Under the pieces are notes generated by a model. It had not been told where the DNA came from. It did no database searches and saw only the letters and a program-made list of their open reading frames with translations. From assembly GCA_029339505.1 (NCBI GenBank), contig JAQISU010000003.1:19723001-19787000 (forward strand): a DNA stretch of 64,000 bases, in the 5' to 3' direction. Origin of the DNA: Unio delphinus. Taxonomy: Eukaryota > Mollusca > Bivalvia > Unionida > Unionidae. A program made the translations under genes and the position numbers. Of the stretch, positions 37,082 through 64,000 are shown one piece after another; position 1 is the first letter of the stretch; each line of letters opens with the position of its first letter.

Positions 37082-40000
37082 CATGGCGGCCAGCATTAAT
37101 GGTGGAGAAAGAACCACTGACCCACGAGAAGCTACTGGCAAGCTTTCTTACATCCATACAATGGGTGAATCTGAGTCTTTTACCCATGCAGACAGAGGAG
37201 AGATGGCAGTGATCTATAGCAGCCATATTGAAAATCATTTTATTAGCAATACTCCTGAATTAAAACAATAGACATGTAGTTTTATGTCCAGTTCGTCCAA
37301 AATTGAAAAGTCAAATCAGCTTAGATTTTTAATAAGAAGTCTTCATATGGTGAATAATTGTTCCTAAATAATCATCTTGAAATTCTTGTTATTGCTGCTA
37401 CTCCTGAATTGATTGTCATATTGACATGGGGTTTTCACTAAAAGACTTTACACTATCTAGGTTGTCTTAATAAAAATAGTGCTAATCTTAATGTAATAAA
37501 AATGGTGCTAATCTTAATGTAATATTGTTACCTTGATGGCCATCTTAAAAATCTTGTTTTTGATAAGGAATATCAGAGATGGTTTCAACACTTTGCAGTT
37601 ATTAAGTGGAAATGGTCTTATCTTGGATTCATGGATATTCTTTTTTAGCGAATAGAGTTTTAATCACTTTGAGGGACTTGTGTTCAAAAGGTTAATGCTT
37701 TTTTTGAGTGTTGGAATACAGCATTTCACAAGCATTCATCCTAAGATAAATGTGTATTTAATACTTGTATGAAAATTGCTTCATTTGGCATATTTCATTG
37801 GTCACTGTTATGGAGTTGCATCTAAATTTTAGCCTTGTCCACTAGGAATACATGTAGTAACTCTAGAAATTAAAGTCATGTTCAGGTTTGGTTGAAGGTA
37901 TTTATTTCCAGTTTCTTGTTCTTTTTCAGGCATGTTTTAGGCGTGGAATGAACCCAGTTGGCCTGGATAGAGCAGAGCAAATCATGTATCTGGACAAATG
38001 GACAAATATTGCACAACACCTGAATGGTAATCATCCTAATTAGTATATAATAATTATTAATAAAAACAACACCTGAATGGTAATCATCCTAATTAGTATA
38101 TAATAATTATTAATAAACACAACACCTGAATACTAATCATTCTAATTAGTATATAATAATTATTAACAAACAACACCTGAATGCTAATCATCCTAACTAA
38201 TATATAATAATTATTAACAAACACAACACCTGAGAGCTAATCATCCTAATTAGTATATAATAATTATTAACAAACACAACACCTGAATTCTAATCATTCT
38301 AACTAATATATAATAATTATTAACAAACACAACACCTGAATTCTAATCATCCTAATTAATATATAATAATTATTAACAAACACAATTCCTGAATGGTAAT
38401 CATCCTAATTAGTATATAATAATTATTAATAACAACAGATGTCAGTCAGTGCCTCCTACAGTAAACTTGTTACAGATAGCACACTCTTAGTAAGAGCGGG
38501 AGGAAAATCAAAAATAAATAAAATTGATTCTCCAGTCCATGTCTTATTCTCCAGTTCAAATCTACATGCATCAAGATGCACAAGCCGGAATTTATGTGCG
38601 TCAAAAATGGGTCATATTCAAATTCGTCAAAACACTGCACATTTTTTTTAAACCTAGCTTTCAATCCTAATAATTGGTTACCCAATGAAATTGAAATTAT
38701 ATTAAATGTGAACCTGAACTGGTTTATTTTAAGTTCATACATCCCAAAAAGGTATAAGCATAACAAGTAAAAAAATAAAATCAGTGTGCCAAATTTACAG
38801 AAAAACATATGAAGAGCACATTTAGTTACAATTCTTGTCACAAATTTGCTAACTCTATCAGGATTAGTATGAGAATACAGTCACAAACCAGAATGATAAT
38901 CACATGTTTACCATTTGCTGAAAGGGTGTAAGGTCAATTCCACTAATTCTGAATGCTGTGTCACTGGAGAATTCCTCTTTCATAATTTGTAAAGCTCTGT
39001 TGATTTGTTCTTTTCCTGATGTAACATGTTCTTCAATCTAACAAAATCCCTCTCTAACATCCACAAGTCACATAAATAAAGCTTATTTCAGTTAATATTG
39101 GCACCTTGTTTTTTTTTTTTTTCAGTATTGACTGGTCTCCTACATAAGTGTGTATCAAACTATAATGAATCTGTGACACTGTTTGAGATCTAAGAAAACT
39201 GTTTTTTTTAGAAACATATGTACAGTTACTATAAATAGAAAATAAGGAAAGTTTTCAACATACATTGCCAAATGGTCACACACATCATAAAAAAAGATCA
39301 GTAGACAGAGGTTTATGATAGATCATTATCACACGACACAAGTCTCAAATTGTACTAGTTATTCTGTGTCTTGCTATCTCCTGAATTTGCCAGATCATTG
39401 AGGGGTCCTCGAGTGGTCTAAAGCGCTCTCCATTACAGATCACTGACATCTCACTTCTGTCTGTGGGTACGAGTCTCAGATTTGGCTAATGTGGGTATGT
39501 AAGAAAGCTTGCCAGTAGCTTCTCGTAGGTCGGTTGTTCTTTCCGGGGTTTTCCCCTGGTTCTTCCTCCACCATTAACACTGGCCGCCATGTATAGCCTA
39601 TCTTCTGCTGAAAAATGGTGTTAAACCCTACAAAAACAAAACAAACCAGATCATTGATTGGAATTTGAAGTGATTTTTTAAATTTTTTTACATGAACTAA
39701 ACAGGTACCCTATAGCTAATTGTATTACCCAGGCAGTTATGAATGAGCAGGTACCTGGATATCCATTGACACCTTTATTCACCATTTGTTGACCAAGAAT
39801 TACTATGAAATCATTTATTTACATTGAATAGCAAATGATCAGGTTTGGGGATTATTTTTATATTTGGTAATTATCTGGATCAAACCCTTATACACAATTG
39901 TAATTTTGGCCCAATTGGCAATTTCGCATATGCTGTCATCTTGCATTGGTGCCTCTTAGTAATTTAATGTATGTACTTGTCTGTGTTACAAGGATACAAT

Positions 40001-49791: not shown

Positions 49792-51829
49792 TACCGTATA
49801 TACTCGTGGAAATTTAGGAAAAAAATAAGGCCTGGAAGAAGGGGGGGTTGGCTTATCTGCGGGTCAAGGTCCAAATCTGAAATTTATTATGCTTTTTTCC
49901 CTCGATTTCCAGTATTTATTGTTTCCATCAATCGGCGAATATGAGATCACATGCCTAATGATGCCACATGGCTGATAAGATTTGTCTTGTCGTGAAGTAA
50001 AACAAATATTCTTTTTCTAACATAAGTGGTAGGATAATGAATGAAAAACATGTTTTAACGTACTTGACGTCTATTTGACAGATGTCCATCCACCAGAAAA
50101 TACAGCCATATGTGTTATTTGAACCACAGAAATATGTGCATTTTCCAAAAGAACTGCCATATTAGTAATCTCTAGTCAAGTATTTAACCCTCACCTAATC
50201 AGTCATCATTAAACTACGGTTTCGTAGAAATGCACGCTAGTTTATTTCAGTGTAAATATGAAAAGAATCTACGCAAAAAAATAAAAGAAATATGATGCTG
50301 AAGGTATACATCCGTACGTGTTATTTGAACTACGGAAATGCATGTATTTTCCAAAAGAACCGCCATATTAATCTCTAGTCAAGTATTTAACCCTCAGCTA
50401 ATCAGTAATAATTAAACTCTACGATTATGCACACTAGCTTATTTCAGTGTAAATATGAAAAGAATCTACGTATAAAAAAATAAAAGAATTATGATACTGA
50501 AGGTATATACGACAAACATTTTGATCGAGAGTAGAAATGCATGTACAATAGTCTTAAAGAAACAATAGCGAGAGGCTCCATAGGGGTTTGTTGCGCGCAC
50601 GCTTTGGAAGGGTAAATAACATTGCAATATACAAGACAGCGTGAATAATTGTAAAACAATATAATTTGTTGGATTTCTTTGATAGGTGTTTTAGACGTAA
50701 TAGTCAGCCACAGTTTATATACTACTGTTGATTGGTTGTCTGTAAAGCAAAGTGGTTTCTCAGCTGTAGAGTGTTGTACAATAGCTACCATGTGCTTAAT
50801 CTCTTGTAAATGCCTCGGGGATAATATTTTTTTTTTTTGTTGCACAATGCCAATGACTTTACTAAAATATGCCGACTCTCAGATGTATCGTTTACTGAGA
50901 TATTGTAGTGGATGGACATGGTTTCTGCTCAAGTTATCAACCGTCACAATACTTGAATCATGTCCACGCTGAAACCATTCATATTTTGATCAATTGAATC
51001 ACACTACCGGTAGTTTAAAAAACACACAAATAAGCAAGAATGATAAATAATTATCAAATACAAATTGATAATCAACTGTGGAAATAATTAGAGGACAAGG
51101 TATAAAAATAGTACACTGCCACTATTAGAAATTATTTAAGTTTATATTCAATTCAATCAGATAAAATGAGTAGTGTAGAAAGTAAAAGAAAGCGTTCTGC
51201 ATATGAGGAAGCATTCAAACTTAACGTTATTGAATTACAGAAGCAAATAACAACTGTGCTGCACGCAAATTTTTGTGAACGAGTAGCAAGTATGGGAATG
51301 GCGGTAATTCGTCTACGTGCTATGCAGATGGCGAAAAAAAATAAATAAAAATTGGCAGATTCAAAATTTGTTGCATCAGCTGGCTGGTGCTCTCGTTTTA
51401 AGAACCGAACTATCGGATGACCATGATGACAATGACGACATATATGATGAAAGCATGCCCATAACAGAAGCCAAGATTCGTGAACTGTTTGGCAAGTCTG
51501 ATACAGAGCCCGATTTTGAAGGATTCTAAACTAAAAGTGATTGAACTTTTATAATTCATGGTTTTAGAATGAGGATTAATTAAATTTCCATTAAGACGTA
51601 ACACTTTAGAATTGTTTTTATTTCAACATATAAATTAGCTTTCTTACTTTCATTTTATTTATCTAAATAAACATATTCAGAACTCACTTTGTGCATCTTG
51701 TGATGTACAGGTAGTCTAGAAATTATGAGTCGGCTTATACACGGATCATGCACTTTATAACAGTTTTACCGATTCAGTTCAGGGGGTTGGCTTATACGTG
51801 AACGGGCTTATACGCGAGTATATACGGTA
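49792..51829 (+). mobile_element. Deleted pogo/Tigger-like DNA transposon, copy 2
   Basis: The inverted ends are TACCGTATATACTCG and GCGAGTATATACGGTA with flanking TA. It is the same family as 32972-35054 but in opposite orientation, and shares the duplicated AACCGTAG-type segment (50150-50450). It lies between the LETMD1-like 3' end and the virus-like element. Confidence 0.8.
51166..51529 (+). pseudogene. Remnant of a pogo-like transposase, copy 2
   Basis: It starts MSSVESKRKRSAYEEAFKL, a typical pogo/CENP-B N-terminus. An early stop at 51346-51348 and a frame change separate this from the second part, 51317-51529, with an acidic region DDHDDNDDIYDES and the tail GKSDTEPDFEGF. The DDE domain is deleted exactly as in copy 1, so both derive from one deleted ancestor. 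Confidence 0.62.
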
Positions 51830-51949
51830 TATATTGATAACTTACATATGTGTAGTACACTCCACAATATGTTAAAAAATGTACATGTAGCAGCAGAGAG
51901 GGTGAATCGGACATGTTTCAAACAAAAGTTTGCATTTCGGATTGGCACT

Positions 51950-52125
51950 TAAAAAATCAAACAAAAATGACTGAAAATCAATGAAAACGGGCAAAAAAAA
52001 TGGCTGCAAATCAATGAAAACAGGCAAAAAATGGCTGCAAATCAATGAAAACAGGCAAAAAATGACTGAAAATCAATGAAACAGGCAAAAATTAATGAAA
52101 AATCAATGAAAACAGGCAAAATATA
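51950..52125. repeat. Tandem repeats at the left edge of the viral element, about 31 bp x 5
   Basis: Units contain AAATCAATGAAAACAGGCAA. Related sequence (AAATCGATGAAAACAGACAA) occurs at about 59840-59865 within the element, so these repeats probably belong to it rather than to the host. Confidence 0.65.
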
Positions 52126-52133
52126 AAAAAAAT

Positions 52134-52158
52134 AGTCTCCGTTTGGCAAATGGAGACT
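52134..52158. promoter_or_regulatory. 25-bp near-perfect palindrome beside the ATPase gene
   Basis: AGTCTCC/GGAGACT arms enclose TTTG/CAAA, with one G-T apposition and a single central base. It lies about 60 bp downstream of the ATPase stop codon, so it could mark a transcript end or form a cruciform. No homologue is seen elsewhere in the window. Confidence 0.5.
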
Positions 52159-52216
52159 TAGTCATTTTTGTCTGAAAACATGATCTTGCAGGGGCTTCAA
52201 AATGGGTAAAAACTCT

Positions 52217-52882
52217 TCAACCGAATATTTTATCAAGTCCGATACGATATCGTGTCCTCGGGTCTGCTAAATTTATCGTCACAAATCTGTGTGGTATTGA
52301 CTGCGCGTGACTAAAGAAATTTCTAAATTGATTATGATTCATATCACCGCTGCACCAGGTCTGATGAATTTTTCGTAGCATATGAGTATCAACTCCGTTA
52401 AATACACACAATAAATTGCAGTTATCTCTGATCACTTTTGGTATTTGTGTGTATCGTTGAGTGACATATATCACGTCAGTGTTTTTATGCCTGCCTCTGA
52501 AAAAAATCCTAGCAGGATTCTTTTGATTATCTAACATGATATCGTCATATACCACTAAATTGTTAATACTTCCATCAATAGCATCAATGCTCGGTGCTTC
52601 CTCTATATCGGTTATAAATTCAATGATATCATCATCGAATTGAAATTCTTTTGCGTTCTCGTTAAAATACTTTAGCACTTCATAGCATCGCTGATCGTCT
52701 ACACTCGGGGCTATTAAATACAATTTGTTCCATTTCATCCATCTCGTTATTAAATTAAGTAGCAGTTGTGTCTTTCTGCTTCCAGATGGTCCGATTATAA
52801 TCATTCTAATTGAATTCGGCAACATTTCATGGTGTTTAATAGGTTCCCATCGTCGGGTAGCTGAATAATCAATTATAGTCAT
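52217..52882 (-). CDS. FtsK/HerA-type (A32-like) DNA-packaging ATPase
   Basis: 221 codons, uninterrupted. After PNSIRMIIIGPSGSRKTQ near residue 30 (Walker A region) come the Walker B stretch NNLVVYDDIML near residue 105 and RHKNTDVIYVTQRYTQIPK near residue 135, the sensor-like strand typical of A32/FtsK-HerA packaging ATPases of Polintons and nucleocytoplasmic large DNA viruses. These enzymes pump genomes into capsids. The Gly before the Walker A Lys is Arg here (codon AGA), which would probably harm ATP binding. The ATG start lies just downstream (in its own sense) of a divergent neighbour beginning at 52900, so the two share a 17-bp gap. Family confidence is high; activity is doubtful. Confidence 0.85.
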   Translation of the reverse strand: MTIIDYSATRRWEPIKHHEMLPNSIRMIIIGPSGSRKTQLLLNLITRWMKWNKLYLIAPSVDDQRCYEVLKYFNENAKEFQFDDDIIEFITDIEEAPSIDAIDGSINNLVVYDDIMLDNQKNPARIFFRGRHKNTDVIYVTQRYTQIPKVIRDNCNLLCVFNGVDTHMLRKIHQTWCSGDMNHNQFRNFFSHAQSIPHRFVTINLADPRTRYRIGLDKIFG

Positions 52883-52899
52883 GCTGTTATATATAAATT

Positions 52900-53387
52900 A
52901 TGGATCTATATTGTGTGAAGTGTAAGGCGCGTACTGGCACAGATGACTTGACGACAATTACAACTAAAAATAACCGATCAGCGCTTTCTGGTAAATGCGT
53001 ACAATGTAGTACAAAGAAATTTAGATTTGTTTCCAAGGATTTAAAAAATAACGAGGGGGTGATATCGCAGCCAAGCTAACTAAACTCCCTGGAACCCCAT
53101 GGGCAAAGTACCCCGGAGAAAAACACCTTCCAGGGTATAGTTATTGTGGACCCGGAACCAGACTTGATATCAGACTCAATAATCATAACCAATCCAAACC
53201 TGGTGAAGAACCAATAAACGCCATTGATAGGACGTGTCACGTTCATGATGTTGCTTATAAAAGCAGCAATTTGCAACACAGGCATGTAGCAGATGTGAAA
53301 TTAATTCATGCGTTAAATGCTATTCCTGATAAATCCTTCAAAGAAAAATTGGCTTCCTTTTTTGATAAAATCGGCTATGAAAAGTAA
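52900..53387 (+). pseudogene. Zinc-ribbon (DUF5679-like) plus parvovirus-type phospholipase A2, frameshifted
   Basis: The first frame (52900-53079) begins MDLYCVKCKARTGT and continues to CVQCSTKKFRF, a four-Cys zinc-ribbon. The second frame, one base back (about 53055-53387), has HLPGYSYCGPGTRLD, the Ca-binding loop of parvovirus-type PLA2, and CHVHDVAYK, its catalytic His-Asp. In parvoviruses and adintoviruses such a domain breaches endosomal membranes. The frame change falls at a run of five G (53053-53057), so a one-base deletion is most likely; programmed -1 slippage is less likely but possible. It sits divergently from the ATPase and just upstream of the integrase. Confidence 0.8.
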
Positions 53388-53419
53388 ATTGATGTTAGGT
53401 GCACGTAATTAATAACAAC

Positions 53420-54357
53420 ATGGAATTTATTTATTATTCTCCAAAAGGATACTGGAGAGGCAAGGCAGCAATCAATAAACTCGCTAGCGCTGCAAAAGTG
53501 AAAAAGGCCACTGCGGCTCATTGGTTATCCAAACAGGCACTATGGCAAATTTATCTACCACCGCCTAAACAAATTCACTACTCGCATTTTGATGTGACCG
53601 TTCCTAATGAAGTTCATCAAGCTGATATACTATTTCTGCCGCACGATGGTGGTTATAAATACGCTCTAACCATAATTGATGTTGCAAGTCGATACAAATA
53701 AGCAGAACCGTTAAAAATAAAATCATCACCTGAAGTGGCTTCTGCATTTGAAAGGATTTATCGAAGGGGTCCTCTGCACTGGCCAAATCTGTTACAAGTT
53801 GATCCTGGTAAGGAATTTCAGGGTGCAGTGTTATCAATAATGAAAAATCATAATGTCACCATCAGACTGCGCTACATCGTGATCAGGCAATTGTAGAACG
53901 ATTTAATAAAACCCTTGCTGAGCGGTTATTTGGATATCAATACGCAAAAGAATTCATCCAAGAAAAAAAATCCAGTGAATGGGTTAAAAGATTACTAGCT
54001 GTGATTACCGCACTGAATAATGAGATTACTAGAACAATCAACATGAAACCTATCAACGCTATTAAAAGGAAGTCTATACCCGTACAACCACAAAAAGATT
54101 TCAAAGAACCAATTCTTGGTAGTAATATCACTGTTAGGTATTTATATGAACCAGGAAAGCTTGAAGGTGGCAGAAAAAGGGCTACTGATCCTGTTTGGAG
54201 TGTTACTGCACACAAGATATCTAGTATAACACGATCTAGCATTTCTAGACCAGCAATCTATAGACTGGATTCAACTGCCCCTCAACGAGGATTTACTCGA
54301 CAACAATTACAAGTGATACCCGAGGATACTCAATTACCACCGCTGGGTCTTAAATAG
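53420..54357 (+). pseudogene. Polinton-type integrase (rve/DDE), broken by a stop and a frameshift
   Basis: The ATG at 53420 opens MEFIYYSPKGYWRGKAAI, the N-terminal signature of Polinton integrases, followed by WLSKQALWQIYLPPPK. The catalytic core is present: Asp in HQADILFLP, Asp in LLQVDPGKEF and Glu in AIVERFNK, in DDE spacing. A TAA at 53699-53701 falls after DVASRYK, and a one-base deletion-type shift lies near 53865. The third frame (about 53880-54357) carries the C-terminal chromodomain-like part. This copy therefore cannot make the enzyme. Its end overlaps tail-to-tail with the helicase gene on the other strand. Confidence 0.88.
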
Positions 54358-55830
54358 GATTTTCAAAGACAATTCTTCGAAGCTGATTTATTTTTCGTAC
54401 TCTGGATACTGCAAGATAGACTAAATTTGACCATTCGATGCGATTATCTGCTATCCAAACAACTGTATCCGATATAGTCAATCCCTGTGAAGAATGTATT
54501 GTTGCTGCGTATCCTAGCATCCATGGGGATTTATTAGAACGCAATGCATCTTCAACGACATTGATATCAACCAGCACAATATCATTTAATACGAGAATTT
54601 GTTTTCTTGACTCTGTCCCTGAGGTACTGAAAGCGTTGCAAATTTTTTTTTATGCGTTTCAAATAACTTCATCTGAAGTATGTCTCTGACTATTTTTCTA
54701 CTTGCAATTATCAAATCATTTGGTCTCCACGCTTCCCAGAAATCATTCATTGGAGTTTCTGAAATTATTTCACGGGCTATTTCACACTGGATTCTATCCG
54801 GTTGTAATCTGATTAGTTTCTTAAATTCTTTTAATTCATTATCAAGTGATCTATAATCGGTGTGAATTTCTTCATAATAGTCTACAAAACCCTTTAGCCA
54901 TTCATGTGGGGATGCACCGACAAATGGTGGGGGTTGGCCATGATCACCGCACATGACGACTTTTGTAGTTTTCAATAACAACCAGTCAAGAAATATTTGT
55001 AATACATCTAATGACACTGTGCATATTTCATCCCAAATGATGATTTCAGGAATAAATTTTTCGCCCATACACTCAGGAGTCCACTTATCTCCTTTCCATC
55101 GAAAGAAACTGTGATAAGTACAGGCATTTACCCCTCGCTGTATCATTTCTCTTGCAAGTCTGTGAGTTGGTGTTAGCACAATCATGTTTGGATTGGAAAT
55201 GCGGAATAATTCAATTGCACGTGTTGTCTTTCCTGACCCGCCACAGCCGTTTAAATAAACTGTTTTATACGGGCATATTGGATCATATACCGGTGGTGCA
55301 TTAGAAAATTCTGATTGAATCTCAAAGAGATTCCGATAATTATTTTCAATTGTAACATCTGCTGATTGAATATAATCATGAAACATTTCCCGCTTAATTC
55401 TCCATGATCCCCAATTATCGTTGCCAGTAGCCTTGCTACCGTTTATGAATTCAGACATATCGCTTTTTATGTAAAATGAATCAGTGACGACTCTAACTGC
55501 GGTGTTAGGAAATTTATTTATCATTGAAAACAGATTAATAGAAGCATAACCGAGCATAGAAGCTCTCAAATGTGTATACTGCGGATTGTACCCATCGTTG
55601 TAGGTAACAATTGTACCCAATTTGGTTCCATCGGACAGAAATGCGTCTTTACGATTGACATATAGGCCTTTATTCGTTAGATCCGCGATTACAAAATCTT
55701 ATTCAGGTTTGTCTATAATTAACCGTGAAGAATCTCTTGTATTGTCATATTTGCCACCCTGGGTGAATTTACCGATTATTCTTCGTCCAAGATCTTTTGC
55801 TTCGTTGTTTCTGATTTCAAACAGCTGTTA
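54350..55830 (-). pseudogene. C-terminal half of DNA polymerase B and fused SF1 helicase
   Basis: On the minus strand the longest open piece is 54586-55620. It starts with a polymerase part: YNPQYTHLRASMLGYASIN and VVTDSFYI (motif C, usually DTDS). It then continues without a break into a helicase: GCGGSGKTTRA (Walker A), IIIWDEI (Walker B) and CGDHGQPP (motif III). The piece at 54350-54577 adds GYAATIHSSQGLTI and LAVSRVR (motifs V/VI), so it is superfamily 1, RecD/Pif1-like. A frameshift at a run of nine A (minus sense, about 54643-54651) separates them. Upstream of 55620 the frame is open but has TAA at about 55698 and 55828, with RIIGKFTQGG (motif B-like) between. Joined polymerase and SF1 helicase is unusual for Polintons. 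Confidence 0.8.
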
Positions 55831-55898
55831 AGACCAATTCATGATTTTGTTGTTCATTAAATTAAAAGCAGTTTTCGCTGTTCGCAAATTATTTTTTT

Positions 55899-56430
55899 CT
55901 ATATTTGTGGTAACCAGACTGATTTCTGTGCTCGATAGGATATAATCGCTTCACTGACAATTAATGATTTTAACATCTCACAATCAATCATATACCGTAA
56001 TAACACTATTGACATCCAGTGTTTTTCAGACATGTGTTTACCAATAAAAACATAACTACACGGATGAAGTCCTGTAGCCAATTCAAATGATACTACACGA
56101 GCGAATCCGGTTAAATCAAAATCAGGCAGTGGTCCATTAATCGCAACACGAGCCATTTCGTGTGTGGGGTGTCCAAATCGTTTGAAATATCTAGCACACT
56201 CTCCATGCCCGAGAAAACTCCCTGGATAACACGCAATCATATCAACGGAAATAACGGTTTCAGGGTCATATTTTGTATTCCATAACCCTCCATGACTGTA
56301 TTCAAGACAGGACAATCTGACATCTGATAGAAACTCACTTCGCGTTGGTTTCCACGCGTTTTTCTTCCTAGCAAAATGTGCTACAACTGATGGAAGTGTA
56401 ACACAGTTTGTTAATAATTGTTCGTTGTCT
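55899..56430 (-). pseudogene. Palm-domain part of family B DNA polymerase
   Basis: The open piece reads YSHGGLWNTKYDPETVISVD followed by MIACYPGSFLG; SVDMIACYP fits motif A (DxxxxYP) of family B polymerases. ATG at 56315 is internal to the original gene. The frame continues upstream to a run of 14 C (56430-56443), where it shifts relative to the next piece, and shifts again near 55900. The polymerase of Polintons copies the element's own DNA. Confidence 0.75.
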
Positions 56431-57091
56431 CCCCCCCCCCCCCAGAACTCTGGGGAGAAAACTCACTAACTAGTTGTTTCATTTGATTATGAAGCTCTTC
56501 AGTACGGTACAATTCTCCGTTGGGTCTTACAAACTGATTGAATCCACATTCATCGTCTGCAGCACTATGAAATAGCCACATCGACACAGGATCTTTTTTA
56601 CTCAAATTGTAAATAGTATCAAATAATTTCTGCTCGGAAAAAAACTCTTCGGTTGGGGGGATATATTTTACGGTTCTATCCCGCGGGAATGTTGTTACTG
56701 CAGATGACCACGCGTGTTCGTTATGATCAATAATCTGTATTGGAGCTCCTTTTGATTTATATTTAGATTCATATAATACTTCTCCGGTTATTGTCGTTAC
56801 TGATATTGGAAAACTCAATGATGTTTCTAATTTGATTATATCCTGAATTGTTGCCCCATGCTGTTTCACTGTTAATCCCCATTCGGTTATTTTTTTTCGT
56901 CTTAGATCAGTCAATTTATTTCCCCGGGATGCATTTGTGAAGTGTTCTATTATTCGTTCTGCTACACAATTAAGTGGCAATGACGAATATTTCATTGGTG
57001 CTAGTTTTGCAATATCAGGTTTTTCATTTAACGGATATATCCCGTAAACAACTGCTGTTACAGGATAAGATCTCGTAGTATGGTTTATCAA
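56411..57091 (-). pseudogene. N-terminal part of family B DNA polymerase
   Basis: 226 codons with PVTAVVYGIYPLNEKPDIAK, ITTITGEVLYES-like beta segments and FHSAADDECGFNQFVRPN; no exonuclease motif could be assigned with certainty. It ends at the poly-C frameshift that leads into the palm part. Two stop codons (about 57090-57120) separate it from the upstream repeat-rich ORF, which may be the true N-terminus. Confidence 0.6.
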
Positions 57092-57194
57092 TTCCGGTCA
57101 AAATTCCTGGTTTTGAATCCTGATTCACAGTGACAGTTTTTTGTCCTTGAGAATGGGTTCGTATTTATCCCTAATGATCCAATTTCCAGTATCA

Positions 57195-57713
57195 TCACGG
57201 ATAAGGAATTTTACTCGAAAAAAATGCCTTTCTCGCCCAAGATTTGAGATTATCACTGCTGCTTTTTTTATCATTCATGGTGGCATCAACAACACCATCA
57301 ATTCGAAATGTTGACCAACAGTGAGATGCCCCATCACGCTTGAATTCATTAAAACAATCTCTGATTTTACTAATCATGGTTCTATCAAGAATTTTATTCT
57401 TTGGTGTATCAGAAACTCTATCAAGATTGAATTGAGCATTTTTCCAGGGCGTTATTTTCGATAATCTCTTGAACTCCTTCATATCAGAAACTCTATCGAG
57501 ATCGAATCCAGGATTAATTTTCGATAATCTCTTGAACTCCTTCATGCTATCATTTATTAGACGTTTTGGTTTATCGAGATTGAATTTAGGATTAATTTTC
57601 GATAATCTCTTGAACTTCTTCATGCTATCATCTATTAGACGTTTTGGTCTATCGAGATTGAATTTAACATTTTTCAATGGCGTTATTTTCGATAATCTCT
57701 TGAACTCCTTCAT
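57195..57713 (-). CDS. Repeat-rich N-terminal domain, probably start of the polymerase gene
   Basis: 172 codons. Residues 1-110 hold four or five copies of a 25-30 residue repeat (MKEFKRLSKI-P ... FNLDRPKRLIDDS), followed by a non-repeat part with FNEFKRDGASHCWSTFRIDG. It lies directly upstream of and collinear with the polymerase, and 57100-57195 continues with polymerase-like sequence, so I infer it is the N-terminal extension of the same gene. The repeats are basic and helical; a DNA or protein contact role is only a guess. It may instead be a separate gene. Confidence 0.55.
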   Translation of the reverse strand: MKEFKRLSKITPLKNVKFNLDRPKRLIDDSMKKFKRLSKINPKFNLDKPKRLINDSMKEFKRLSKINPGFDLDRVSDMKEFKRLSKITPWKNAQFNLDRVSDTPKNKILDRTMISKIRDCFNEFKRDGASHCWSTFRIDGVVDATMNDKKSSSDNLKSWARKAFFSSKIPYP

Positions 57714-57737
57714 ACTATAATTAAAACAAGCATTTAA

Positions 57738-58129
57738 ATGAAAGATTTATGTATAATGAATCGTTGCAAATGGCTCATGATTGGATCAGTGACTCCTTGT
57801 AACAAATCATGCAGAAATGAGTTCTGTGGGTATCATATGCAGAGTTTTCGACGTGGAAGCCTTGGTCCGTTACCCTGTATTCGATGTGGGGTTGGGTGTC
57901 GGGAAAATCACAATTGTGTATCGGTTGTGGTGGAAAGCGATACAGAGAGTTGAAGCGTTATTATGATAAAAGAATAAAAAATGGATTTTCAATCAAAAAT
58001 TCTGACACTGACTGTATCCCTGACACTGACAAAGTCAGCGACAAAATCATAAGAACCGCTCAAGACTACATTGAAAGATTCTCCAGTGATGTTATTATTA
58101 AACCAAACAATGAATTAGACAAACAATAA
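57738..58129 (+). pseudogene. Small Cys-rich zinc-binding protein, frameshifted
   Basis: ATG at 57738 or 57756 opens MNRCKWLMIGSVTPCNKSC and then RNEFCGYHMQSFRRG and PCIRCGVG. A shift near 57893 moves to the frame of 57884-58129, which reads SQLCIGCGGKRYRELKRYYD and then a charged tail. About eight Cys and one His in CxxC-like pairs suggest two zinc sites. I do not recognise the family with certainty; it is probably a small nucleic-acid-binding protein. It diverges from the polymerase gene across a 25-bp gap. Confidence 0.55.
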
Positions 58130-58141
58130 TATAGTATACAA

Positions 58142-58597
58142 ATGAACCAAGAATTCAGACCACACCCAGTGATTAAAAATTATGAAGCATCCAGTGATGG
58201 TACTGTCAGACACTGTAGACTGAAGAAACCAGTTGGTGCTGACAATGGTAGGGGGTATTTGATATTTGGCACTGGAAAGAAGAAAAATTATCTCAATCAT
58301 CGTTTCGTATTTGAATGTTTTTATGGATTGATCGAGGATGATTTTGTTATTGATCACAAGGATTCTAATCCAAAGAATAATTCCTTATGAAAACTGCAAG
58401 CTGTTACCCAGAGTGAGAATTGCAAACGAGGTTGGACTGGGAAATACTCGAAAAAAGCGAGACCAGTAAAATCTTTTAATACAACAACTAATGAAGAAAA
58501 AATATTTCAATCAATGAATGAAGCCGGTAGGCACTTAGATATTTGTTCACCTTCTGTACGAAGAGTTGCAGAGGGGATTTATCGATCTGCCATTTAA
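58142..58597 (+). pseudogene. HNH homing-type endonuclease with NUMOD-like tail, one nonsense codon
   Basis: The first 82 codons read KNYEASSDGTVRH, KKPVGADNGRGYL, then NHRFVFECFYG and VIDHKDSNPKNN, the HNH fold with DH and paired Asn. TGA at 58388-58390 interrupts at the point where such proteins continue with NL; the same frame then stays open to TAA at 58595-58597, with QSMNEAGRHLDICSPSVRR, a NUMOD1-like DNA-binding repeat. One base change explains the break. HNH genes of this type are mobile passengers in viruses. Confidence 0.75.
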
Positions 58598-58679
58598 AAA
58601 AAGACCGAACAAAAAATTCAATTTATTTATGTCTAATGCGTCATATTTTTCAATTAGAAATATGTAATTGTAATAGAAT

Positions 58680-59036
58680 ATGAATTCTGAAAAAATGAAT
58701 AGCATTATAGCTGAAATTTTAAAATTGTAAAGTCAGGATATCAAACTATCAGATGGGTTAAATCCTGATCAAATCATGTCAGATTTTCAGGATATAGAAT
58801 ACGGAGTTAACAATAACAAGTATATGCTGCCAAAGAAATATGCGCTCATCAAAAAAATTCAGAATTCTATTCGGGACTCTCTTGCATTATCCAATGAAGT
58901 AAGTGTGTTCGTCCCGTTATATACTATCGTAGAGGGAATACGAAAAGAATTGGGTAACGAATACAAATTGAAAAAAGAAGTTAATTCTAAAATTAGAAAC
59001 CTACGGGCGTTAATTCAAGAAAATGAACGATTTTGA
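58680..59036 (+). pseudogene. Small hypothetical gene with an early stop
   Basis: ATG at 58680 opens a frame with TAA at 58728-58730, then open again to 59036. An internal ATG at 58776 would give 86 codons (MSDFQDIEYGVNNNKYMLPK and then a helical, charged C-terminus with KLKKEVNSKIRNLRALIQE). The two parts share one frame, so a single base change may separate them. Family unknown. The end is followed at once by a tandem GACCGACCCTCAAAGAGATT motif. Confidence 0.45.
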
Positions 59037-59150
59037 CCGTGACCGACCCTCAAAGAGATTTTGTCATTTTTTGATTGTGACCGACCCTCAAAGAGATTTT
59101 CATTTTTTTAGCCGACCCTCAAGGGAAATGTCAAAAAACCAGTGAAAACA
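59037..59150. repeat. About 38-bp tandem repeat, 3 copies
   Basis: GACCGACCCTCAAAGAGATT twice, then GCCGACCCTCAAGGGAAAT. CTCAAAGAG forms a small inverted repeat in each unit. A related CTCAAAGAGATTTTC occurs near 59970. Confidence 0.75.
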
Positions 59151-59185
59151 GTGAATAAAAAATCGATGGACGATCAAAATAGAAT

Positions 59186-59236
59186 GTGGAAAGTGTCAGT
59201 ATTATTTATTTTTATAACAATTATGACACTTTCCAC
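59186..59236. ncRNA. Stem-loop 1 of array
   Basis: Arms GTGGAAAGTGTCA and TGACACTTTCCAC pair perfectly over 13 bp around a 25-nt loop starting GTATTAT and ending CAATTA. Whether it acts as RNA or DNA is unknown. Confidence 0.75.
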
Positions 59237-59349
59237 AAACAATGATAACACCCTTAAAACATCAAAATAAGACTTCCACGGTGGTGTTAAAAATCATCAA
59301 AATCAGTGAAAACAGTGAATAAAAAATCGATGGACGATCAAAATAGAAT

Positions 59350-59399
59350 GTGGAAAGTGTGGAATTAATTATTTTTTATACAATTTCCACACTTTCCAC
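59350..59399. ncRNA. Stem-loop 2 of array
   Basis: Arms GTGGAAAGTGTGGAA and TTCCACACTTTCCAC pair perfectly over 15 bp. The last stem positions differ from stem-loop 1 on both arms. Confidence 0.75.
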
Positions 59400-59491
59400 A
59401 AACATGATAGAGCCGTTAAAACATCAACAACAAAAAAAGACTTCCACGGTGGTGTTAAAAATCATTCTACATGTCATTGATGAAAAAAAAA

Positions 59492-59542
59492 GTGGGGAAA
59501 GTGTCTATTATATATTTTTATAGCAATTATGACATTTTCCAC
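59492..59542. ncRNA. Stem-loop 3 of array, degraded
   Basis: GTGGGGAAAGTGTC and GACATTTTCCAC pair only with a two-base bulge and one wobble, but the loop (TATTATATATTTTTATAGC) matches the others. It looks like a decayed member. Confidence 0.5.
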
Positions 59543-59602
59543 AAACCTGATAGAAGCTGTTATAGGATGAAATAACACTTCCATGACTGTCTCACGATCG
59601 GT

Positions 59603-59652
59603 GTGGAATCGGCACATTACATTTTATTTATATGAAAAGGTGCCGTTACCAC
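59603..59652. ncRNA. Stem-loop 4 of array, distinct stem
   Basis: GTGGAATCGGCAC and GTGCCGTTACCAC pair with two mismatches in 13 bp. The overall length and position match other members, although the inner stem is quite different (CGGCAC/GTGCCG). Confidence 0.5.
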
Positions 59653-60159
59653 ATCAATGATAGAAGCTGTTTTATAATGAAATAACACTTCCACGGTGGT
59701 GTTAAAAATCATCAAAATCAGTGAAAACAGTTAATAAAATTATCAAAATGAATCCTAACAGCTTTTCTCTACGGAAATCCAATGCAAAAGCGTCTACTTT
59801 ACCCTACGAGGTTTTTTGATAAAAATCAGTCAAAAATGACCAAAAATCGATGAAAACAGACAAAATTTGATGAAAAATGATTAAAAATCATCAAAAATGA
59901 GTTCTAACAGCTTTTCTCTCCGAAAATTTCAATGCAAAATCGACTACTTGACCGTAAAATCTCAAAGAGATTTTCAACTGAAAACCATCAAAATTACACA
60001 AAATGGCACAAAAAACCACCAAAACTGTCAAAAAATCAGTGAAAAACAGGCATGATCAGTGAATAAAAAATATTTCATACTGAATAAAAAATATTTCATA
60101 CTGAATAAAAAATCGATGGACCGTTAATGGATGGTTCTCTCGATTGATCAAAATAGAAT

Positions 60160-60209
60160 GAGGGAAGTCACAGTATTATATATTTTATAGCAGTTTTGTG
60201 ACTTCCCTC
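60160..60209. ncRNA. Stem-loop 5 of array
   Basis: Arms GAGGGAAGTCACA and TGTGACTTCCCTC pair perfectly. Compared with stem-loop 1, four stem positions are changed and all four are compensated. Confidence 0.78.
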
Positions 60210-60286
60210 ATCGATGATAGAAGCTGTTTTATAATGAAATAACACTTCCACGGTGGTGTTAAAAATCATCCGACATGTCAAAAAAT

Positions 60287-60337
60287 GGCGAAAGTGTCAG
60301 TATTATTTATTTTTATAGCAATTATGACACTTTCGCC
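60287..60337. ncRNA. Stem-loop 6 of array
   Basis: Arms GGCGAAAGTGTCA and TGACACTTTCGCC pair perfectly. Two compensated changes relative to stem-loop 1; the loop is nearly identical to it. Confidence 0.78.
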
Positions 60338-60417
60338 ATCAATGATAATGCCCTTAAAATGTCAAAATAACACTTCCACGATGGTATCAAAAATCATCCG
60401 ACATGTCAAAATAGAAT

Positions 60418-60467
60418 GTGGAAAGTGTGGTATTAATTATTTTTTATACAATTTCCACACTTTCCAC
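60418..60467. ncRNA. Stem-loop 7 of array
   Basis: Arms GTGGAAAGTGTGG and CCACACTTTCCAC pair perfectly. Same stem type as stem-loop 2, about 1.07 kb away. Confidence 0.75.
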
Positions 60468-60544
60468 AAACATGATAACGCCGCTAAAACATCAAAATAA
60501 CACTTCCACGATGGTATCAAAAATCATCCGACATGTCAAAAAAT

Positions 60545-60595
60545 GTTGAAAGTGTCAGTATTATATATTTTTATAGCAATTATGACACTTTCAAC
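60545..60595. ncRNA. Stem-loop 8 of array
   Basis: Arms GTTGAAAGTGTCA and TGACACTTTCAAC pair perfectly. One compensated change relative to stem-loop 1. Confidence 0.78.
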
Positions 60596-60651
60596 ATCGA
60601 TGATAACGCCCTTAAAATTTCAAGAAAAACACTTCCACGATGGTGTTAGGT

Positions 60652-60740
60652 TGGATTGAAAAATTGTTTTGCAATTGAAAAATTGTTTTACAATTGAAAA
60701 ATTGTTTTACAATTGAAAAATTGTTTGCGATTTCAAATAT
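60652..60740. promoter_or_regulatory. Tandem inverted-repeat block before the first late gene
   Basis: CAATTGAAAAATTGTTTT is repeated four times and ends GTTTGCGATTTCAAATA. Each unit is a small inverted repeat (CAATT...AATTG). The same block type stands before the next gene at 61650, so it probably marks late promoters or transcript ends. Confidence 0.55.
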
Positions 60741-60742
60741 AG

Positions 60743-61633
60743 GTCAATGAAGCATTAACGACCCGATTGGCTCGTGAACGATTAGATGCAATTAAGAGAT
60801 TTATACCAATTCGAGACTCTGTAAGAAATAAACTGCAAGCTACACAGAGTCTTCAGACTGATTTTGCTGAGGGATCTGAAGAATTGTTTAAACCAATAAC
60901 CACAGCAACGAAGGAGGTAGTGTCAACAATCTCTGAACAAGGAAAAAAACAAGAAGAGACCTTTCTCCCTGTGTTAGAAAAAATAGAAAAAAGAACTAAA
61001 CAAACAAAAGAATCATTAAAAACACTTCCTCAGAATATATCAGAACGACAATTTGAAGAACAACAACGACTAGTTAGTGGACTACCTAAATCAAGGAAAT
61101 TATCGGATCTATTTACCGATAAAGCTAAACAACTAATTCTCAATGAGAAGGAGGGCAATTTAAGTGAATTTGCTGCTAACAGCTATGATTCACAAGAGAA
61201 TTTTTTCACGGACAATTATACGGATTATAGAATGTCACATAATGAATGGGCTGATATAGTGTATGAAATAAATACCGGGAGTATAGATAGAAGGAGGACG
61301 AAATATCGAGAATTTAAGAGAAATTTTGATTATCATTTACAACGCCAAACAAAACAAGAAGAACTTGATGATGATGATAAACTGGATGAAGCAACTGGTT
61401 ATAGCGGAAAGGGATTAGGGACCCCAAGTAGGGTATGTCCTGATAGTGTTATCAATGATATATCACGATTAGATGTTCTAATCGGAGGGTTCCGATCTGG
61501 AAATAATTCACCGGAAATAATTAATGAAGCAGCTGATATATGTAGACGGTTATTTCAAGGTGGTATCATGGATATCAAAACATATCTTGGTTTCATTAGC
61601 GATTTAGTGGAAAATGGGTATCATAGTGACTGA
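60743..61633 (+). CDS. Hypothetical virion-associated protein, start codon lost
   Basis: The open frame begins right after a TAG (60740-60742) with VNEALTTRLARERLDAI and stays open to 61633, about 296 codons. It is rich in charged coiled-coil-like helices (residues 20-110: KEVVSTISEQGKKQEETFLP, KIEKRTKQTKESLK), followed by an acidic patch (EELDDDDKLDEA) and a Gly-rich C-terminal part. No ATG exists before codon 100; the sequence TTTCAAATATAGGTC differs from the next gene's TTTCAAATAATG, so a single inserted or changed base seems to have removed the start. Position between the array and capsid genes suggests a late structural or scaffold role, but I do not recognise the family. Confidence 0.6.
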   Translation, partial: VNEALTTRLARERLDAIKRFIPIRDSVRNKLQATQSLQTDFAEGSEELFKPITTATKEVVSTISEQGKKQEETFLPVLEKIEKRTKQTKESLKTLPQNISERQFEEQQRLVSGLPKSRKLSDLFTDKAKQLILNEKEGNLSEFAANSYDSQENFFTDNYTDYRMSHNEWADIVYEINTGSIDRRRTKYREFKRNFDYHLQRQTKQEELDDDDKLDEATGYSGKGLGTPSRVCPDSVINDISRLDVLIGGFRSGNNSPEIINEAADICRRLFQGGIMDIKTYLGFISDLVENGYHSD

Positions 61634-61695
61634 AATCACTAGTGATTAATTGAAAAATTGTTTTACAATTGAAAAATTGCTAGCAATTTCAAATA
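61634..61695. promoter_or_regulatory. Inverted-repeat block before the second late gene
   Basis: ATTGAAAAATTGTTTTACAA then GAAAAATTGCTAGCAATTTC, a hairpin-forming sequence with a CTAG centre, ends at AAATA next to the ATG at 61696. Confidence 0.55.
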
Positions 61696-62136
61696 ATGAT
61701 CATACACTACAATCATGATAAACCAGCCAGTGTCTATGTAGTTCATTCACGATTTCCAGTTTATAGAGCATATTACGGAGATGGTTTCGGTGATACCATT
61801 GCAGGGTTATTTTCAAGAATGGCCCCAAAAGTGATGCCGTTAGCTAAACAACTAGGAATGAAAGCCATTGATGTTATTCGTGATAAGGGTATTAGTACTG
61901 TTGGAGATCTTGCCGGAAAAGCGTTTTCAGCTGCGAAGAATAAATTAACAGCGCTAGTTAGACGAAAAAAAAAACAGGTACCATTGCCATCTACAGCGGA
62001 AATGCCTGCGAGTGTTAGTAAAATTATAAATAACGCAGTAGATGAAAAACTAGCATTGCTGGTGACTCCAAGTGACCAAGATAACATGATAGCAAACATG
62101 ATAGCGGGAAGTGGCTTTAAAAAAACACGACGATGA
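61696..62136 (+). CDS. Small basic minor virion protein candidate
   Basis: 146 codons, intact. Residues 28-60 read YGDGFGDTIAGLFSRMAPKV and MPLAKQLGMKAI, a Gly-rich start followed by an amphipathic helix, then a Lys/Arg run RRKKK near residue 95 and a helical C-terminus with basic end (KKTRR). This layout resembles minor core/membrane-active proteins encoded beside the capsid gene in adintovirus-like elements (adenovirus pX/pVI-like). That analogy is by eye. It lies 62 bp after the previous gene and 63 bp before the capsid candidate. Confidence 0.6.
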   Translation: MIIHYNHDKPASVYVVHSRFPVYRAYYGDGFGDTIAGLFSRMAPKVMPLAKQLGMKAIDVIRDKGISTVGDLAGKAFSAAKNKLTALVRRKKKQVPLPSTAEMPASVSKIINNAVDEKLALLVTPSDQDNMIANMIAGSGFKKTRR

Positions 62137-62199
62137 AAAATCTTTTACGATGAAAATCGTTTACGATTTCACGATTTAGACTCTGATAAATAGAATAAA
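62137..62199. promoter_or_regulatory. Inverted-repeat block before the capsid gene
   Basis: GATGAAAATCGTTTACGATT and TCACGATTT form overlapping short hairpins (AAATCG/CGATTT). A similar block with different bases stands before the other late genes. Confidence 0.5.
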
Positions 62200-63615
62200 A
62201 TGTTCAAAAGGTCACCTGATCCAGCATTTGATATGGATGCCCCAGTGCTCAAGAATGATTCTGTACGCGATTTTCAATTTTATTCTTCTCACGCAACACA
62301 ACCAGATCTCCGATCGCGAATTGAACTTCAAGTTCATGATACCAGTAAATACTTTTTGCCTTGTGAAGCGTTTATCGAAATCGAAGGTGAACTCGTAACA
62401 AATGTTGTAGCTAATACCCCATACGACAATAACCCGACTCTTAAAGTTGGTTTTGTTAATAATGAGATCATGGCGCTATTTGAAAGTGCAAGATATCTCA
62501 TTGATGGAAAGGAAATTGAATCCATTGACCGTGAAGTTGATGTTGCCACAACAATCATAGGGTTAGCGAGATATTCTGATGATTATACAAGATCAGCTGG
62601 TCCATCTATGATGTTTTCTAAGGATATTACTGATCACCCTGAACACGTCCAGTATTCTAGAGTCAAGGCAACACATGCTTCTTCAGTTAATCCAGCACCA
62701 GCCGGATATGTAAGACCAGCTGGTGATTTTGATGTCATAAATAATATTACTAACTACAACATAGGGTTTGCAACACGCGTAGCAACGTTGCATGGACAGC
62801 GTCGACAATTTTCATGTGCGATTCCACTGCATCATATTTTTGGATTCTGTAGAAATGTCCGAAAAGTTATTTATGGAGCGAAGCATACAGTAGCGCTTGT
62901 ACGAAAGGGTACTGATAATGATGCAATCTGGCGTGATGTTGGTGTTGCTGATGGTAAAGTCATTTTAACAAAACTAGCATTATGGATGCCAGTGTTAACT
63001 CCATCAATCACAGAAGAACAGCGACTACTATCATTTATGGATCAAGGAGGAAAGTCGTTGTTGAGTTGGTTATCAGTGACTACGGATATCAAGCAGGATA
63101 ATGTTGATGGTACATTCACATGGCATCTGGCATCAACACAAGGTGTTTCAGCTCCACGTCATATATTTGTAGCGTTACAGAATAATGTGCGGGTTGGTAA
63201 TCAAGAACGAAGCCATATGATATTTGATCAGTTAGGTGTTAATGAAGTATCGCTGAGAATAAACGGACAGCAGGAACCATCCGAGGATATACAACTTGAT
63301 TACACCACTAACCATATTGCGCGTGTATATCATAACATGTTGTCATATATGTCACGTGATCAAAATGTGGATACTGGTTTGCAAATATCACAACTTGATT
63401 TTAAAAGCCTCTATCCGATTTATTACTTTTCACTGGAACATCTTGATTTAACAAGACAATCTGTCGTTGATATACACTTCAGAGCTCGTGTAACCCGTCC
63501 TGGTGGTATTGCTAATTACAGAGCGGTTGCTGTCATTCTCAGTGATAAATCAATGCTACTTGAAGGTGTTGGTGTTAGAATGAGAATCATTGATTCACCA
63601 GTGGAAAATCTATGA
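62200..63615 (+). CDS. Major capsid protein candidate (double jelly-roll type)
   Basis: 471 codons, uninterrupted, starting MFKRSPDPAFDMDAPVLK and ending DSPVENL. Recurrent beta-strand patterns, a conserved-looking block AIPLHHIFGFC near residue 205, LWMPVLTPSITEEQR near residue 262 and the C-terminal VDIHFRARVTRPG fit a jelly-roll capsid of the Polinton/adintovirus/virophage group. Length (450-650 residues) and the place at the end of the late block also fit. It is the largest intact gene of the element, which suggests either recent loss of function elsewhere or later selection on this gene. Function is inferred; a fold prediction would be decisive. Confidence 0.7.
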   Translation: MFKRSPDPAFDMDAPVLKNDSVRDFQFYSSHATQPDLRSRIELQVHDTSKYFLPCEAFIEIEGELVTNVVANTPYDNNPTLKVGFVNNEIMALFESARYLIDGKEIESIDREVDVATTIIGLARYSDDYTRSAGPSMMFSKDITDHPEHVQYSRVKATHASSVNPAPAGYVRPAGDFDVINNITNYNIGFATRVATLHGQRRQFSCAIPLHHIFGFCRNVRKVIYGAKHTVALVRKGTDNDAIWRDVGVADGKVILTKLALWMPVLTPSITEEQRLLSFMDQGGKSLLSWLSVTTDIKQDNVDGTFTWHLASTQGVSAPRHIFVALQNNVRVGNQERSHMIFDQLGVNEVSLRINGQQEPSEDIQLDYTTNHIARVYHNMLSYMSRDQNVDTGLQISQLDFKSLYPIYYFSLEHLDLTRQSVVDIHFRARVTRPGGIANYRAVAVILSDKSMLLEGVGVRMRIIDSPVENL

Positions 63616-63655
63616 TTGAAATTGTAAACGATTTAGAATCAATATATTATGTATA
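63616..63655. promoter_or_regulatory. Short inverted-repeat block after the capsid gene
   Basis: TTGAAATTGTAAACGATTTA lies between the capsid stop and the next ATG; it repeats the AAATTG/AAACGATTT theme of the other late intergenic blocks. Confidence 0.4.
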
Positions 63656-64000
63656 ATGACATATAGTAATATTAGTGTTGCGTTAACTCCTGGTCAAATC
63701 AAGAAATTGCAGTCGGAATCAGCTAAAAAAATGTGGAACCACTATCACGCTAAAACCCAATCAAATCACTGGCGGGGCGAATAAATTATCACTGACAACT
63801 CGTCAAGTGAAACATTTCAATGATGCACTTGTAGCAAAAAAGGTGTTCAGATTACTATTTCTGCGGCTGCTATCAAAAATATGATTAAAACAGGCGGTAT
63901 ATTCCCGTTATTTGCTGCGTTACCAGGATAAATTACAGCGGCTGCACCAGCAGTTGCAAAAGCAGTCGCATTGGGGGCAGCTGGAGGCTTGGGAGCAAAA
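63656..64000 (+). pseudogene. Virion-associated protein with Gly/Ala-rich hydrophobic tail, broken, cut by window end
   Basis: ATG at 63656 opens MTYSNISVALTPGQIKKLQS. The recognisable sequence then moves between frames, with shifts near 63728 and 63835, and a TAA near 63930 after FAALPG. The last part, AAPAVAKAVALGAAGGLGA, is a Gly/Ala-rich hydrophobic segment. Such a helical start plus a Gly/Ala hydrophobic tail occurs in membrane-active minor capsid proteins. The end is outside the window. Confidence 0.5.

Follow-up and report, generated by a model that had tools for sequence, protein, structure and literature searches.

Hairpins with matched stem changes preceding the virion genes in a Polinton/adintovirus-like provirus in the mussel Unio delphinus

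Results

We analysed a stretch of 64,000 nucleotides of the Unio delphinus genome (contig JAQISU010000003.1, positions 19,723,001 to 19,787,000 of the forward strand), referred to here as the window, and give all positions in its numbering. The window contains an element that we call a partly decayed Polinton/adintovirus-like provirus, the right end of which lies beyond the window. Two features of this group are present by Pfam, namely a double-jelly-roll major capsid protein (62194..63615, + strand; PF21738, 4.6e-18; 18 relatives) and an ATPase of the A32/FtsK-like kind, annotated as an A32-like packaging ATPase (52217..52897, − strand; PF04665, 9.7e-14; 54 relatives at E ≤ 0.001, the weakest of them remote). 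These relatives were recovered as proteins only. Those with a name belong to unionid mussels, Sinanodonta woodiana for both proteins and Potamilus streckersoni for the capsid, and most of the closer ones lie on short contigs. The element also carries a phospholipase A2-like domain (53052..53387, +; PF08398, 7.5e-12), a weakly matching remnant of an rve integrase core that ends at a stop codon (53399..53701, +; PF00665, E 0.002, 18.8 bits vs. a cut-off of 32.6), an SF1-type helicase ORF (54586..55698, −; PF13245, 1.3e-10), an ORF made of several repeat copies around MKEFKRLSKI without a convincing family (57195-57746, −) and, inside the element, an ORF for an HNH endonuclease that weakly matches NUMOD4 and resembles a homing endonuclease (58130-58390, +). 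Where a protein-primed DNA polymerase B is expected, two − strand ORFs match nothing in Pfam, NCBIfam or PHROGs, and one of the two gave two weak, unrelated matches when compared with PDB sequences.

The hairpin array (59135..60650, +) lies in front of the virion genes and fills a noncoding gap of ~1.7 kb that is bounded on the left by a small + strand ORF (58731-59036) and on the right by the + strand virion-side ORFs, the first of which has no convincing family (60743..61633). It comprises eight hairpin units, the last four of them spaced 127–131 nt apart (a unit of ~130 bp). The stretch from the array to the start of the virion-side ORFs holds 19-bp repeats, AATTGAAAAATTGTTTTAC (60655..60736, +), and short palindromes resembling them recur before the next two ORFs. 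By eye, such palindromes sit at the virion-side ORF borders at 60655-60736, 61634-61692, 62130-62170 and 63617-63640; they read AAATCG-TTTA-CGATTT, AATTGC-TA-GCAATT and AATTGTTTTACAATT repeats, their arms differing from one another and being mostly matched, and they are possibly a second family of border signals. Elsewhere in the window, an unrelated tandem repeat at 38012-38429 has 53-bp units that are linked to one another through the palindrome TAATAATTATTA.

We number the hairpins H1–H4 and H6–H9, there being no H5. Six have perfect maximal stems of 14–16 bp closing AT-rich loops of 20–25 nt, and together with two imperfect hairpins they span 59185-60597; the first-pass annotation, made from the letters of the sequence, had likewise counted six perfect stems of eight, with stems (13–15 bp) set slightly too short and loops of about 25 nt. 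The perfect hairpins, all given on the + strand, are H1 (59185..59237; stem 14 bp, core GTGGAAAGTGTCA, loop 25 nt), H2 (59349..59400; 16 bp, GTGGAAAGTGTGG, 20 nt), H6 (60158..60211; 15 bp, GAGGGAAGTCACA, 24 nt), H7 (60285..60339; 15 bp, GGCGAAAGTGTCA, 25 nt), H8, a near-duplicate of H2 with the same core (60417..60468; 14 bp, GTGGAAAGTGTGG, 24 nt) and H9 (60543..60597; 15 bp, GTTGAAAGTGTCA, 25 nt). H3 (59492..59544, +) is imperfect: it has a single mismatch in the core and a single G-T pair, and it lacks 2 nt. H4 (59603..59652, +) is the most diverged, pairing by eye at 11 of 13 positions, with an inner CGGCAC/GTGCCG and arms at 59603 and 59640. The loops of H1, H7 and H9 are nearly the same, and in these three the stem continues inward with a 2x2 mismatch followed by 3 bp.

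Inverted repeats with a stem of at least 12 bp and a loop of 15–35 nt number 6 in the observed sequence, against a mean of 0.01 and a maximum of 1 in 200 first-order Markov shuffles of 59101-60700. Folded as single-stranded DNA, 6/8 hairpins reach z scores of −6.4 to −7.2 (H4, −3.73; H3, −1.46). A covariance model had been proposed on all eight copies; ours was built from the six perfect hairpins, with H3 and H4 left out. It recovered H3 at E 4.3e-11 from outside its training set and did not match H4, which is too diverged for it, and it found no further family member below E 0.1 in the 64-kb window, where its minus-strand matches below this value are the known sites read backwards. In 51801-64000, perfect inverted repeats with arms of at least 10 bp and a spacing of 2–30 nt were found nowhere but in the array.

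Three simple identities for the array were considered and rejected. The 127–131-nt spacing does not keep to multiples of three, and the units are therefore not a coding repeat; the array sits between genes of the element, which speaks against a host satellite; and small foldback transposon insertions are at odds with arms that vary, no target duplications being noticed by eye.

We then compared the stems. In the 13-bp cores of the six perfect hairpins (H4 not included), 78/78 pairs are Watson-Crick and none is G-T, and positions 2, 3, 5, 10, 11, 12 and 13 vary, that is, the seven of 13 initially reported. With three states at two of these positions and two states at the other five, any tree requires nine pair changes or more, all of them matched on the opposite arm. 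The changes at positions 12 and 13 belong to H2/H8 and are accompanied by a 1-nt indel; coming with an indel in one duplicated pair, they leave a cautious minimum of seven. In an alignment of the six hairpins, 6/15 pairs show changes on both sides and none shows a change on one side only, and the covariation score is 0.364 vs. a shuffled mean of 0.103 (0/500 shuffles); sliding the partners by 1–3 columns leaves at most one both-side pair, and the unpaired cells (3/88, two gap cells set aside) all lie at the outermost pair. Base pairing is kept in the array hairpins, as the first reading of the sequence had held. This sample is small, with four lineages carrying all nine changes, and all stem comparisons are between paralogous hairpins within one copy of the element.

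Shared descent from a few duplicated ancestral hairpins could make such compensation merely apparent. H2 and H8 are indeed 99% identical over 70 columns, and the loops of H1, H7 and H9 are alike; however, the nine or more matched changes that any tree requires (seven on the cautious count) make duplication insufficient, and when the same numbers of changes were placed independently on the two arms, on average 0.64 of the nine matched, with a maximum of 5 in 100,000 simulations. This explanation, offered at the outset as one that could overturn the observation, is thus contradicted, and we consider it very improbable.

The other finding named in advance as damaging, stem changes without compensation, does occur within the array, in 2/8 hairpins. 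Compared by eye with H1, H4 has five matched and two unmatched changes, and H3 contributes one unmatched change and one G-T pair. The claim that every change is matched is therefore limited to the six perfect hairpins. Since the integrase of the element has also decayed, the unmatched changes in H3 and H4 may be post-integration decay.

The kind of change is informative about its origin. Seven of the nine pair changes are of a type unable to pass via a G-U intermediate. Among instantaneous compensations in rRNA, 61.0% are transition-type, according to Monttinen and Loytynoja 2022 (PMC8794818); against this 61%, transition-type changes make up 2/9 in the array (P=0.022), 1/7 without the H2/H8 pair (P=0.016) and 3/14 with H4 (P=0.003), a comparison that we treat as a pointer because the molecules are very different. 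Changed pairs are also adjacent somewhat more often than under random placement (P=0.079 for the six hairpins; P=0.015 with H4 added). The same source describes template-switch hairpins in which multi-base compensated changes, attributed to copying of the other arm, keep stems perfect. In the array, the arms would fold together when single-stranded during replication, template switching would copy one arm onto the other, and a one-arm mutation would be either erased or spread to both arms. Non-transition changes and neighbouring changed pairs are what template switching would leave, and the missing wobble pairs together with the transversion-type changes favour DNA-level arm copying over slow RNA compensation. 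Copying of one arm onto the other, one of several possibilities raised in the first-pass annotation, accordingly agrees best with the type of change seen in the six, and we infer, with moderate support, that template switching maintains the stems.

The spacers tell a separate history. Over 28 unit pairs, hairpin and spacer similarity are uncoupled (Spearman −0.13, p 0.52; boundaries set by hand, spacers taken to the right of the hairpins, gap columns not counted): units 4 and 6 have spacers identical over 54 nt and hairpins 70% alike, while the spacers of the near-identical H2 and H8 are 83% alike. Hairpins and spacers have separate histories, and either hairpin cassettes move within the array or spacers are homogenised. 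The spacers, noted as similar in the first reading of the sequence, keep the nearly palindromic motif TTCCACGRTGG without a change in 7/8 units (59442-59452 and six further sites).

A further motif, ATCARTGAAAACAG, is common to the element's left-end repeats (51963-52121) and the array (59138-59859), always on the + strand; it has 9 matches in the window vs. 2.4 expected, of which the left-end repeats and the array hold four each, and this sharing suggests a common cis-acting use. All eight loops contain TATAAAW on the minus strand (59210-59216, 59374-59380, 59516-59522, 59626-59632, 60183-60189, 60311-60317, 60442-60448 and 60569-60575), and 3/8 contain TATATAT on the plus strand. This resembles an array of promoters, but we keep it as an observation only, since single-loop shuffles give the motif 12–35% of the time and the loops are AT-rich and related by descent.

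Transcription offers two other accounts of the hairpins, and T-tracts bear on both. At least five T in the 8 bases after the hairpin were found for 7/8 hairpins on the − strand and 0/8 on the + strand, against a background over gap positions of 31% and 12%, respectively. The − strand tracts (TTCTATTTTG, TTTTTG or nine T) are the left flanks of H1–H3 and H6–H9 (59170-60545); they are of three kinds and partly shared by descent, and hence are not seven independent cases. Even so, they keep terminators and short − strand hairpin RNAs as serious rivals. The built-in terminator scan, which returned 0 sites, allows loops of 3–8 nt only and is therefore uninformative on the array hairpins.

Under the first of these accounts, the hairpins would be terminators or transcript-end hairpins, stacked to block transcription through the gap, and the T-tracts would put the ends on the − strand. 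Pairing that is kept while stem sequence is free would suit this role, as would the − strand tracts at 7/8 hairpins vs. 31% of gap positions, and AATAAA occurs in the gap six times on the + strand and three times on the −. On the + strand, however, which is the strand of the neighbouring genes, no hairpin has a tract, and to the right no − strand gene is known that could have its transcript end here (the element extends beyond the window); the − strand is T-rich, and its tracts are partly inherited together. Eight copies with loops of 20–25 nt stand in one gap instead of one per gene, and the other gene borders inspected by eye hold only short palindromes with arms of 5–7 bp. The suggestion of transcript-end hairpins thus fits the + strand poorly and keeps its tracts on the −; overall, we consider it quite unlikely.

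The second account, which we judge unlikely, holds that selection acts on the hairpins as RNA. They would form a group of short structured RNAs, either precursors of small RNAs or another viral noncoding RNA, whose stems go on pairing while their sequence, and perhaps their targets, diversify; in a − strand version, hairpin RNAs would stop at the T-tract in the manner of polymerase III transcripts. Seven of the eight hairpins form stable RNA folds (−22.0 to −27.1 kcal/mol on the + strand and, for the same seven, −18.8 to −27.1 on the −), the arms come near 22–25 nt once inner pairs are counted, the − strand T-tract follows 7/8 hairpins, and the best Rfam match is mir-583 (E 0.0055, 28.4 bits). 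Yet no Rfam match reaches its gathering score, miRNA-family matches scoring 21–28 bits vs. cut-offs of 53–100, so that no described family of microRNA precursors is matched at that level; G-U pairs are 0/78; and the loops of the array are as conserved as the stems, which is not so in typical miRNA clusters.

Discussion

The observation that drew attention to this locus is confirmed and its interpretation partly supported. Taken together, we read the array as a noncoding, cis-acting, DNA-level repeat region of a Polinton/adintovirus-like provirus, with arms equalised by template switching and a role like that of baculovirus hr regions, and put the probability of this reading at roughly 0.37. 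It is favoured because a single account then covers both the absence of G-T pairs and the freedom of the stem sequence. As to function, we can only guess, by analogy, that the array may act like baculovirus hr palindromes, as an enhancer of virion genes, a replication element or both. Several findings count against this DNA-level reading: the inner mismatches of H1, H7 and H9 remain, though pure copying might perfect them; the variable arms are unlike a sequence-specific binding site; without H4, the excess of neighbouring changed pairs loses significance; unmatched changes occur in two hairpins; and the − strand T-tracts at 7/8 hairpins are unexplained by a purely DNA-level role.

A leaner version would dispense with function altogether, the hairpins being a mutational by-product of arm copying such as any inverted repeat that replicates via single strands would show. 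It shares all the evidence for arm copying, and template switching by itself can create and maintain perfect stems (PMC8794818). Against it, the eight copies keep similar loops and spacer motifs and stand in one place before the virion genes, and 51801-64000 holds no other perfect inverted repeat of the size searched for; we regard it as improbable. More broadly, and still more likely wrong than right, a lineage of animal DNA viruses may carry an array of modular hairpins in which arm-to-arm copying during replication constantly rewrites the arms and holds them identical, so that stems diversify under a preserved structure with preserved loop and spacer signals. If this were true, such hairpins would act as a sequence-free, structural control element.

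Changes that are matched across a stem are usually taken as strong evidence of a selected RNA. In this array, wobble pairs are missing and changes tend to be of the transversion type, which suggests that the replication of a DNA virus can mimic the RNA pattern. If this were confirmed in other copies, the array would provide a natural test bed for selection vs. template switching and a handle on virion-gene control in Polinton-like animal viruses.

Searches for such copies returned none. In viral_contigs, no relative of the array or element was recovered with the capsid sequence, with alignments of the capsid and the ATPase, or with DNA patterns of stem, loop and spacer; 17 stretches matched a DNA pattern, but they have unrelated loops and look like chance, the stem extending past the pattern by 0 bp in 10/17 and by at most 1 bp in 15/17. 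The capsid alignment had no match in genome_contigs, and seven bacterial or archaeal stretches there with the spacer pattern were taken as chance from their record titles. A comparable array was likewise not found in print among open-access papers.

Several known systems nevertheless share parts of the pattern. Baculovirus hr regions resemble the array in their tandem repeats around a palindrome in AT-rich viral noncoding DNA, but hr palindromes are imperfect, about 30 bp long and bound by IE1, whereas the mussel array, from an unrelated virus, has perfect arms in 6/8 hairpins, of variable sequence and 20–25 nt apart. Conserved half-sites of the hr type for a dimeric activator are absent, 7/13 arm positions being variable, and we therefore do not claim hr membership. 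The mimivirus hairpin rule (PMC4402537) likewise involves hairpin-forming palindromes without conserved sequence; mimivirus hairpins, however, end viral transcripts, whereas ours are eight, stacked, with long conserved loops, and a hairpin per transcript end of the mimivirus type was not seen, the eight being in one gap and no family member occurring elsewhere in the window below E 0.1. Of the RNase III-like processing enzyme that goes with this rule, no candidate appeared among the 15 ORF pieces scanned with Pfam, though the element continues past the window. Terminators of the yeast pGKL plasmids (PMC6211774) are stem-loops in a linear virus-like element in which pairing matters over sequence, and their T-enriched ends may be compared with the − strand T-tracts of the array; they differ in having weaker stems (median −7.5 kcal/mol), 1–4 near each ORF end, rather than forming tandem arrays within a single gap. 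Palindromes in nematomorph mitochondria (PMC6649704) are another case of many perfect inverted repeats kept under other constraints, though these lie within protein-coding genes and reach 284 bp. The template-switch hairpins of Monttinen and Loytynoja 2022 (PMC8794818) come from rRNA and other RNA genes compared across species, while ours are paralogous hairpins in one element; the multi-base compensated changes that they display are found in the mussel array too.
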